DNA of 29,060 bases from a virus. The notes beneath the pieces are model-generated. The model did not search any database, was not told the DNA's origin, and saw nothing but the letters and a program-made list of their open reading frames with translations. Made by a program: the position numbers and the translations under genes. Within the stretch, counting starts at the first letter, position 1. Each line of letters opens with the position of its first letter. The stretch lies in the IMG/VR virus record IMGVR_UViG_3300032516_000134, positions 1-29,060 of that record; one strand, written 5' to 3'. This document shows positions 3,972 to 23,936 of the stretch, in pieces.

Positions 3972-4101
3972 AAAATAAATTAATTTAATTTAACAAAAAG
4001 TGTTGACATAGTTATAACTATGATATATAATAAGGTATAAAGTTAAGCAAAGGGCTTAGCAAAACAAAAAGGGGATAATTATTATGAAAAAATATGAAGA
4101 C
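3972..4101 (+). repeat. ~130-bp direct repeat, left copy
   Basis: This copy matches 8397-8525 with only a few differences: ATA versus TCA before the -10 box and a small change in the leader. It covers the promoter, the operator, the untranslated leader, the RBS and the first six codons (MKKYED) of the downstream gene. The two copies flank a 4.4-kb gene block. Confidence 0.95.
4003..4031 (+). promoter_or_regulatory. Consensus promoter with palindromic operator
   Basis: TTGACA (4003-4008), a 17-nt spacer and TATAAT (4026-4031) are a perfect sigma-A promoter. A perfect 16-bp palindrome, CATAGTTATAACTATG (4007-4022), fills the spacer and overlaps the -35, so a bound dimeric repressor would block RNA polymerase. 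The right-hand copy at 8429-8450 extends to a perfect 22-bp palindrome. Confidence 0.9.
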
Positions 4102-8403: not shown

Positions 8404-8525
8404 ATTAATTTAATTTAACAAAAAGTGTTGACATAGTTATAACTATGTCATATAATAAGGTATAAAGTTAATTAAGGGCTTAGCAAAACAAAAAGGGGAT
8501 AATTATTATGAAAAAATATGAAGAC
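8397..8525 (+). repeat. ~130-bp direct repeat, right copy
   Basis: Second copy of 3972-4101. It starts at the end of the RHH-like gene and runs through promoter, operator, leader and the first six codons of the 8508 gene. Recombination between the copies would delete the whole helicase-IbrA-IbrB block and leave one promoter intact. Confidence 0.95.
8428..8456 (+). promoter_or_regulatory. Consensus promoter with 22-bp perfect palindromic operator
   Basis: TTGACA (8428-8433) and TATAAT (8451-8456) are separated by 17 nt. Bases 8429-8450 form a perfect 22-bp palindrome (half-site TGACATAGTTA) reaching from within the -35 box to the -10 box. This is the more complete of two related operators and probably the stronger repressor site. 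Confidence 0.9.
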
Positions 8526-8789
8526 AAAACAGAATTTAAAAAGATGTTAAGAGAGGGCGGTTATGAAACATGGGTTGTAGTTTATAAAAACGGAACTTGG
8601 GAAGCAACAGAATATTTTGAACACATTTTCACTTTAGAAGATTGCAATAGAGATAGAGTTTACGAAAACAAACTCAAAGAAAACCCAGAAGTTATAGAAG
8701 TTTATAATATGTGGGAAACTGGAGAAAGTTTTACGAGAACTAACAATATAGTTAAAGCGCTAGAGTTAAAAATTAACAAGGTGGCTTAA
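8508..8789 (+). CDS. Hypothetical protein under the right-hand operator promoter
   Basis: A 93-aa acidic soluble protein (KNGTWEATEYFEHIFTLEDC in the middle part), with no membrane segment and no recognised domain. The RBS AAGGGG and the leader are shared with the 4084 gene. It is the first gene of the operon that carries the structured leaders and the Spo0E-like gene. Confidence 0.7.
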   Translation: MKKYEDKTEFKKMLREGGYETWVVVYKNGTWEATEYFEHIFTLEDCNRDRVYENKLKENPEVIEVYNMWETGESFTRTNNIVKALELKINKVA

Positions 8790-8801
8790 AACAAAGTTGA
8801 A

Positions 8802-8866
8802 ACGGCTTTTTAGCCGTATTAGGGCAATAGGCAACCCTAACTTATGATACAGCCTACAGAAGGGTG
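8802..8866 (+). promoter_or_regulatory. Structured leader with predicted pseudoknot
   Basis: Hairpin 1 is ACGGCT (8802-8807) with AGCCGT (8812-8817). Hairpin 2 is TTAGGG (8819-8824) with CCCTAA (8835-8840). The hairpin-2 loop holds UAGGC (8828-8832), complementary to GCCUA (8852-8856), which would form an H-type pseudoknot. ACCCU (8834-8838) can instead pair with AGGGU (8861-8865) in the ribosome-binding site of the next gene. The alternatives look like a translational switch, but I do not recognise a known riboswitch class. Confidence 0.5.
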
Positions 8867-8874
8867 AGAGATAG

Positions 8875-9072
8875 ATGGGTGAAAGCGATATAATAGGCAC
8901 AGTTGGAGCGACAGGCTACAATCATAAATATATGAACCTAAGCCCACAAAGTGCATTAATGAAAAAGATTAAAAAGTTGGGCTATACTAAAGAAGATATA
9001 AATATAAAGATAAAAATAGATTGTATAGAGGGTAGTAACTACAGACATATATATACTATATACAAAATATAA
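8875..9072 (+). CDS. Hypothetical protein between two structured RNAs
   Basis: A 65-aa basic protein (MGESDIIGTVGATGYNHKYM ... YTKEDINIKIKID). No recognised domain. AGGGTGAGAG serves as RBS. Its stop codon directly abuts the 5' strand of hammerhead stem I, so ribozyme cleavage would leave this message with a structured 3' end. Confidence 0.6.
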   Translation: MGESDIIGTVGATGYNHKYMNLSPQSALMKKIKKLGYTKEDINIKIKIDCIEGSNYRHIYTIYKI

Positions 9073-9126
9073 ATAGCCTGACGAGTCCAAAAAGGACGAA
9101 ACAAGGGGGTCGCCCCTTGTCGCTAT
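9073..9126 (+). ncRNA. Hammerhead ribozyme (type I)
   Basis: All core nucleotides are present in order. Stem I 5' strand is ATAGC (9073-9077). CTGACGA (9078-9084) is the CUGANGA core. Stem II is GTCC/GGAC (9085-9088, 9094-9097) with an A5 loop. GAA (9098-9100) follows. Stem III is ACAAGGGG/CCCCTTGT (9101-9108, 9113-9120) with loop GTCG, giving the A15.1-U16.1 pair. C at 9121 is position 17, and cleavage is predicted after it. Stem I closes with GCTAT (9122-9126). Hammerheads are known in bacterial and phage genomes. Stem I is only 5 bp, and no loop-loop contact is obvious, so the in-cell rate is uncertain. Confidence 0.9.
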
Positions 9127-9144
9127 CGAAAGGAGGTGAATAGC
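9122..9144 (+). promoter_or_regulatory. Alternative hairpin around the RBS of the Spo0E-like gene
   Basis: GCTAT (9122-9126), the 3' strand of hammerhead stem I, is also complementary to a second ATAGC at 9140-9144, just before the ATG at 9145. The 13-nt loop between them contains the ribosome-binding site AAAGGAGGTGA. Pairing is exclusive with ribozyme stem I, so cleavage and release of the 5' fragment would favour this hairpin. Confidence 0.5.
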
Positions 9145-9297
9145 ATGGATTTAGAAGAAAAAAGAGAAGAATTAAATAAAATAGCGGAAATAAGCCTTAT
9201 CTTAAAAGATTTAACAGTTAAAATCGAGAAATTACAATTAAATAAATCACAAGAACTTGACATTTTAATTGTAGAACAACAAAAAAAGGGGAACTAA
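9145..9297 (+). CDS. Spo0E-like aspartyl-phosphate phosphatase
   Basis: A 50-aa two-helix protein. The first helix reads EEKREELNKIAE. The second carries KSQELDILIVEQQ at residues 34-46, including the family signature SQELD and the following LIV(E)xQ. Spo0E-family proteins are of this size and dephosphorylate Spo0A~P, delaying entry into sporulation. The loop between the helices differs from typical members (KDLTVKIEKLQ), so exact specificity is uncertain. RBS AAAGGAGGTGA is near perfect, and the gene lies 23 nt downstream of the predicted hammerhead cut site. It implies a spore-forming host, with the phage adjusting the sporulation decision. Confidence 0.72.
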   Translation: MDLEEKREELNKIAEISLILKDLTVKIEKLQLNKSQELDILIVEQQKKGN

Positions 9298-9302
9298 AAA
9301 AG

Positions 9303-9701
9303 ATGAAAAATGAATTTGAACAAATCGTAACAAATTGTCCCAAATGTGGGTCAGATAACATTGAATACCAACTAACAGCAGATAACTTAACTGGTAGTGA
9401 CTTAAGTAAAAAAGCTTTAGGGTTCGCAATCTTTGGTTGGTTGTCATTTGCAAAACCACCAAGTAATGATGATAAAAGCACGACTTATTTATTTTGCAAG
9501 AAGTGTGGTTACAAGCAAAACAAAACACTGCAAAAGAAAAAAGCTGCTGACCAACGAATGGTTAAAAGATGGGTTATAGGAATGGCTATTTTTGCCCTCA
9601 CAATGATTGTCGTAGCTAACTATCCACTACACCCATCTGAAATTTTTTTTATAGCAATTATAATAATTTCTATAATTACAGTAAAAATTAGAAAAAAATA
9701 A
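9303..9701 (+). CDS. Zinc-ribbon membrane protein
   Basis: A 132-aa protein. CPKCGSDN (residues 12-19) and FCKKCGYKQ (residues 63-71) form a four-cysteine zinc ribbon split by about 45 residues. Two hydrophobic helices follow (about residues 91-105 and 112-127). The lysines after the last helix are encoded by the start of the AAAAAAAT repeat. Function unknown; it is co-transcribed with the Spo0E-like gene and ends the operon before a terminator. Confidence 0.75.
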   Translation: MKNEFEQIVTNCPKCGSDNIEYQLTADNLTGSDLSKKALGFAIFGWLSFAKPPSNDDKSTTYLFCKKCGYKQNKTLQKKKAADQRMVKRWVIGMAIFALTMIVVANYPLHPSEIFFIAIIIISIITVKIRKK

Positions 9702-9747
9702 AAAAATAAAAAAATAAAAAAATAAAAAAATAAAAAAATAAAAAAAT
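9692..9747 (+). repeat. 8-bp tandem repeat AAAAAAAT x7
   Basis: Seven perfect copies of AAAAAAAT, followed by AAAAAAG. The array overlaps the last codons of the zinc-ribbon membrane protein; every unit contains a TAA. Copy number is expected to vary by slippage, changing the 3' end of the gene and the distance to the terminator. Confidence 0.95.
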
Positions 9748-9763
9748 AAAAAAGTAATATTTT

Positions 9764-9793
9764 TAACCCCTATTAATTTAGGGGTTATTTTTT
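9764..9793 (+). terminator. Intrinsic terminator
   Basis: TAACCCC (9764-9770) pairs with GGGGTTA (9781-9787) around a 10-nt loop, and a T-run (TTTTTT) follows. It ends the ribozyme/Spo0E operon. Confidence 0.85.
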
Positions 9794-23825: not shown

Positions 23826-23936
23826 CAATTGTCGTTTTTAGGTTTTTAAGACGTAAAACGAAAAAATCAAAACAATTCGAGTGATGCGACCACGTATAAA
23901 AGCATAGAATATTTTAAATAGGAAAAGGGGTATTTA

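Follow-up and report, generated by a model that had tools for sequence, protein, structure and literature searches.

A complete type I hammerhead ribozyme lies between two genes of IMG/VR virus record IMGVR_UViG_3300032516_000134 (positions 1 to 29,060, all 29,060 nt of which constitute the window analyzed here), filling the space between the stop codon of one open reading frame and the ribosome-binding site (RBS) of a gene for a Spo0E-like protein. By its sequence, it is a further member of the known class of intercistronic phage hammerheads, and it probably cuts a polycistronic phage mRNA and thereby uncouples the two halves of an operon.

The window codes for a terminase small subunit, a portal protein, a major head protein, and an SPP1 gp7-like protein. 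Phages of Staphylococcus, Faecalibacterium, and Listeria have terminase large subunits with ∼50% identity to its own. These structural genes and terminase relatives make a tailed phage infecting Bacillota the most likely source. The ribozyme is located in the middle of what is plausibly a four-gene transcription unit running from promoter to terminator (8428 to 9787; Table 1). Its placement in the leader of a Spo0E-like gene, as the initial annotation had it, agrees with a PF09388 profile score for the 50-aa protein of 21.7 bits (cutoff 23; E of 2e-4). Stem III was also considered as an intrinsic terminator and was rejected, there being no T run after it on the plus strand; a minus-strand terminator-like score is present at stem III, but without a likely minus-strand gene.

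Table 1. Coordinates of the features in and around the hammerhead locus of the window
Feature	Position	Strand	Remarks
Likely promoter/operator	8428-8456	+	Sigma-70-type consensus 12/12, 17-nt spacer; overlaps perfect 22-bp palindrome TGACATAGTTATAACTATGTCA
First ORF of unit, 93 aa	8508-8789	+	No family
Upstream ORF, 65 aa	8875-9072	+	TAA 9070-9072 directly abuts stem I
Type I hammerhead ribozyme	9073-9126	+	Rfam RF00163; core and stem pairs checked
Stem I	9073-9077 (ATAGC) / 9122-9126 (GCTAT)	+	5 Watson-Crick pairs, open-ended
Hammerhead core	CTGACGA 9078-9084; GAA 9098-9100	+	All conserved nucleotides intact
Stem II	GTCC 9085-9088 / GGAC 9094-9097	+	4 pairs, loop AAAAA
Stem III	9101-9108 / 9113-9120	+	8 pairs including A15.1-U16.1, loop-closed
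Cleavage triplet GUC	Ends C9121; predicted cut 9121/9122	+	
Possible post-cleavage hairpin	9122-9144	+	GCTAT 9122-9126 with ATAGC 9140-9144, SD in loop; putative function
Shine-Dalgarno AAAGGAGGTGA	9129-9139	+	Presumably a perfect 11-nt match to the 16S anti-SD
Spo0E-like protein, 50 aa, SQELD motif	9145-9297 (ATG 9145)	+	PF09388 near threshold
Last ORF of unit, candidate zinc-ribbon-like membrane protein	9303-9701	+	Weak Zn-ribbon matches only
Terminator-like hairpin and T run, likely unit end	9764-9787	+	

Several other features of the window are worth recording. A second perfect TTGACA-17-TATAAT promoter is present at 4003 to 4031 and has the 22-bp palindrome in common with the promoter at 8428 to 8456 (perfect at 8429 to 8450), and the two copies are likely operators of one repressor. 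The first genes after the two promoters (starting at 4084 and 8508) both have the leader ACAAAAAGGGGATAATTATT and both code for proteins beginning MKKYED. AAAAAAT repeats at 9690 to 9755 on the plus strand span the point where the zinc-ribbon ORF ends, ahead of the terminator. Far downstream, at 23841 to 23906 on the plus strand, in the gap that separates the portal gene from the ORF after it, is a GP20-b RNA (RF03003; 42.1 bits, over the cutoff), a candidate RNA that is already known.

The initial annotation described a complete type I core with cleavage predicted after C9121, and both statements hold: every element is where it was placed, the pairs were verified, and a GUC triplet ends at that nucleotide. 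The core has the order CUGANGA, GAA, and UH at the cleavage site, with stem I open and a loop capping each of stems II and III, all three stems being formed from standard pairs. Such a motif is absent from both strands of 400 Markov-simulated windows of the same dinucleotide make-up. The Rfam Hammerhead_1 model (RF00163) scores the element at 26.0 bits (E of 2.9e-4), short of the gathering score of 34, which is a database cutoff and no biological criterion; because hammerheads in nine other phage contigs that satisfy a structural descriptor also all miss it, the cutoff is uninformative for phage hammerheads and gives no verdict on membership.

That hammerheads occur in phages was correctly noted at the outset, and they are found across viral contigs. 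For comparison, five pattern scans of IMG/VR were passed through a three-stem descriptor filter and relatives were clustered, giving 588 hammerheads in 308 clusters. Sufficient upstream sequence was available for 297 clusters. In 219 of these (74%), an upstream open frame of at least 60 codons has a stop codon that either overlaps the core or stem I or is no more than 5 nt away from stem I; for random positions the figure is 8%. In 57 clusters the upstream frame terminates at the UGA within the catalytic CUGA core itself. An SD sequence and start codon follow within 80 nt in 67 of 122 clusters in the least biased set, and the median distance from cleavage site to start codon where both are present is 28 nt, compared with 23 nt in the window. 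Stop codon, hammerhead, SD, and start codon is thus the common plan of phage hammerheads, and the window's element, with a gap of 0 nt to its upstream TAA and a position between that stop and the RBS, conforms to it.

These class statistics suggest that the usual role is cleavage between cistrons, and with the placement common to the class, a role for the window's element as a cutter of polycistronic phage mRNA is most likely, in agreement with Perreault et al. 2011 (PMC3088659). Those authors describe prophage genes with hammerheads beside them, propose that long phage RNAs are thereby processed into single-gene mRNAs, show that tandem sets cleave in vitro and in Escherichia coli, and point out that the 5′ end of one halovirus transcript falls no more than 3 nt from a hammerhead site. 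In the locus described here, a transcript from the promoter at 8428 would be cut once, leaving an upstream RNA that ends in the ribozyme with a 2′,3′-cyclic phosphate and a downstream RNA, coding for the Spo0E-like and zinc-ribbon proteins, that begins with 5′-OH GCUAU and carries a very strong SD. Chiefly, the operon halves would be uncoupled and the Spo0E-like mRNA would gain a defined, short 5′ end.

The consequences for the stability of the cut leader could be of either kind. In the engineered RiboJ element, derived from sTRSV and fitted with an added hairpin, mRNA and protein are both raised, possibly by the terminal hairpin (PMC6206723), whereas in Bacillus subtilis the 5′-OH end of cleaved glmS mRNA exposes it to RNase J1 (PMC3328962), so that cleavage here could also destabilize the mRNA. 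A 5′-terminal hairpin and a strong SD would favor stabilization over RNase J1 exposure.

Some features of the window's ribozyme are atypical. Of the 148 clusters whose stem II has this length, 1 has its AAAAA loop II and 96% have a loop beginning with T, and stem I is followed by CG at a place where 72% of clusters have A. Because of this loop and flank, tertiary contacts between stem I and loop II may be poor and cleavage may be slow. The full hammerhead fold makes up 0.2 to 2.4% of the modeled ensemble in short transcripts and less in a longer one, near the 5th percentile of the class, a low rank that does not imply inactivity since nearest-neighbor models ignore the tertiary stability of hammerheads. 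In the main competing fold, CCUGACGA of the core base-pairs with UCGAAAGG, the latter including part of the SD. The atypical loop and flank, the low folding probability, and this competing fold are what would be seen if the ribozyme were degraded or inactive and the locus a decaying copy. We regard this as rather improbable, as a decaying element would not be expected to retain every core nucleotide and all 17 stem pairs, as this one does.

The initial annotation went further and proposed a strand-exchange switch, in which GCUAU, freed from stem I by cleavage, pairs with the second AUAGC, closes a small loop around the SD, and so could change translation of the Spo0E-like gene. The structural part of this proposal is sound: the two segments can pair directly before the ATG, the whole of the SD AAAGGAGGTGA sits between them, and the downstream hairpin and stem I are mutually exclusive because both use 9122 to 9126. 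An exact 5-bp complement in this position also speaks for the switch, as does the folding model, in which the hairpin (−4.4 kcal/mol) dominates the isolated 3′ product with pair probabilities of about 0.97 to 0.99 for four of the five pairs. However, the hairpin is weak beside a perfect 11-nt SD, and the cost of opening the SD is low both before cleavage (2.9 kcal/mol in the hammerhead fold, with the stem III constraint one base off) and after it (2.0 kcal/mol in the 3′ product), as estimated by imposing constraints on the native sequence. The ribozyme, its cut position, its place in the leader, and the exclusivity of the two pairings therefore stand, whereas a functional translational switch is so far not supported, given the weak hairpin, the small change in SD opening, and a marginal enrichment across the class. 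A switch at the RBS is plausible from the modeled folds but unproven, and we think it unlikely.

A simpler reading is that the second ATAGC is a coincidence without a role and that only the ribozyme matters. The window contains 43 copies of ATAGC (0.0015 per position), which gives a chance of about 1 to 2% that any one leader has such a partner, and the initial annotation had many features to choose from. This reading, to which we give a little less than an even chance, is compatible with intercistronic processing, but sits less easily with a modest class-wide excess of segments between stem I and the SD that are complementary to the released strand. Under the processing explanation, the GCUAU/AUAGC hairpin, if it forms, would mainly aid product release and tidy or protect the new 5′ end, and any translational effect would be secondary.

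The frequency of such pairings across phages was compared with a null model in which stem I strands were swapped between phages of similar G+C content, in four sampled sets. Partners of at least 5 bp that enclose the RBS occur in 9 of 240 clusters, compared with 4.2 expected (about 1.75%), with a p value of about 0.015 that is only suggestive, as are others near 0.01, given random cluster representatives and several tests. Before thorough removal of related sequences the same comparison gave 22 versus 6.3. The excess favors a switch as far as it goes, but it comes mostly from one set and is missing from two of the four (0 versus 0.4 and 1 versus 2.0), and permutation within phages gives no signal, a comparison with little power since the stems I of one phage are alike. 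By these counts, RBS-enclosing exchange hairpins are only weakly enriched across phages. The excess of complementary segments wholly upstream of the SD is also modest but more consistent, with 60 clusters versus 40.5 for at least 4 bp and 16 versus 8.6 for at least 5 bp. Pairing of the released strand into the coding region shows no excess (47 versus 47.6), and an anti-SD sequence upstream of stem I was rejected as a general feature (2 versus 1.9 expected). Loci with a released-strand complement upstream of the SD include L026, L068, L074, L102, and L106, among others, in each of which the cleaved mRNA would carry a 5′-terminal hairpin.

The strongest case for an exchange hairpin is in an unrelated phage family of 13 loci (L160, L165, L185, L186, L195, L197, L198, L205, L226, L227, L246, L257, and L265) with eight distinct leaders. 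The layout in this L195/L186 family is CTCC AAA GCTATA, hammerhead, TATAGC, GGGAG or AGGAG, GCTAT, and ATG, in which the upstream CTCC faces the SD and the exchange hairpin encloses it. The exchange pairs are kept in all eight leaders, and three have a compensatory change from A-U to G-C (TATAGC:GCTAT to TATGGC:GCCAT) that alters stem I only to G-U, a covariation that concerns one column pair and may reflect one or two events. This conservation argues for a switch, but two other families do not conserve the pairing, with 7 of 30 in cluster 22 and 8 of 34 in cluster 476. A different arrangement is present in L301 (minus strand, three hammerheads) and in L037 (1520 to 1590, plus strand), in which the 3′ strand of stem I is the SD itself (gggagg or aggagg, paired with cctctc, ccttcc, or cctcct), and cleavage would, by the sequence, leave the SD at the extreme 5′ end of the mRNA.

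Other phages whose stem I contains a G-U pair bear on the idea that the two ATAGC copies arose as direct repeats when a mobile ribozyme cassette inserted, as might be read from the identical copies flanking the ribozyme and RBS. In these phages the downstream segment tracks the complement of the 3′ strand rather than the 5′ strand (about 16 clusters versus 0.3 for 4-nt matches; the corresponding values after tail swaps are 12.9 and 6.3), and an insertion origin thus seems very improbable.

The locus itself has no relatives in phage records, and neither the Spo0E-like protein nor a hammerhead with the ATAGC stem was found elsewhere in viral contigs; conservation of the two ATAGC copies was likewise sought, and no ortholog turned up in either source. 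The nearest contigs with the neighboring DUF3440 gene (69% identity) have no hammerhead and no match to this stretch. A scan of GTDB for hammerheads with a GCTAT stem gave 23 matches, none of which passes the hammerhead descriptor, and these are taken as chance.

Compared with the bacterial and phage type I hammerheads (RF00163; PMC3088659), the window's element has in common the core, the three stems with stem I open, the GUC triplet, the phage or prophage gene context, and the position between genes, whereas its loop II and stem I flanks are atypical, it adjoins a Spo0E-like gene, and a 5-nt complement of its released strand lies between SD and ATG. The HHphage elements of haloviruses HF1 and HF2 are similarly located directly before a phage gene start (13 nt there), with a transcript 5′ end near the cleavage site as would be the case here, but they have a variant core where the window's is canonical, and the passages on them in the same source (PMC3088659) mention no exchange hairpin. 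RiboJ (PMC6206723) is likewise a self-cleaving ribozyme followed by a hairpin and RBS, yielding a hairpin-headed mRNA, but it is artificial, and a separate element of 23 nt, located ahead of the RBS, supplies the hairpin. The glmS and c-di-GMP group I ribozymes (reviewed in PMC3328962) are, like the window's, natural ribozymes in 5′ leaders, controlling expression by cutting or splicing, but they are ligand dependent, whereas no ligand or aptamer domain is seen in the window. Engineered hammerhead and twister switches (PMC5052635) also couple ribozyme folding or cleavage to SD accessibility; they are artificial and cleavage frees the SD, whereas in the window cleavage would let the hairpin enclose it. 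The SD within stem I in L301 and L037 is a natural counterpart of those engineered switches that mask the SD in a ribozyme stem (PMC5052635). No description of this arrangement, or of a covarying exchange hairpin, was found in the literature searched, chiefly open-access articles other than preprints.

A 2017 review (PMC6155905) counts the role of hammerheads in phages and prophages among the open questions. That some of them, including the window's, are natural translational controls, with the released strand re-pairing across or beside the RBS or with the SD within stem I, is a doubtful proposition at present; if it is true, the downstream gene has its translational state set by self-cleavage, and in the window that gene codes for a phage Spo0E-like regulator possibly affecting host sporulation. 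Whether cleavage sets translation as well can be addressed directly in the families that have the SD within stem I or a covarying exchange hairpin. In the window, the phage mRNA whose 5′ end the ribozyme would define codes for a possible sporulation modulator.
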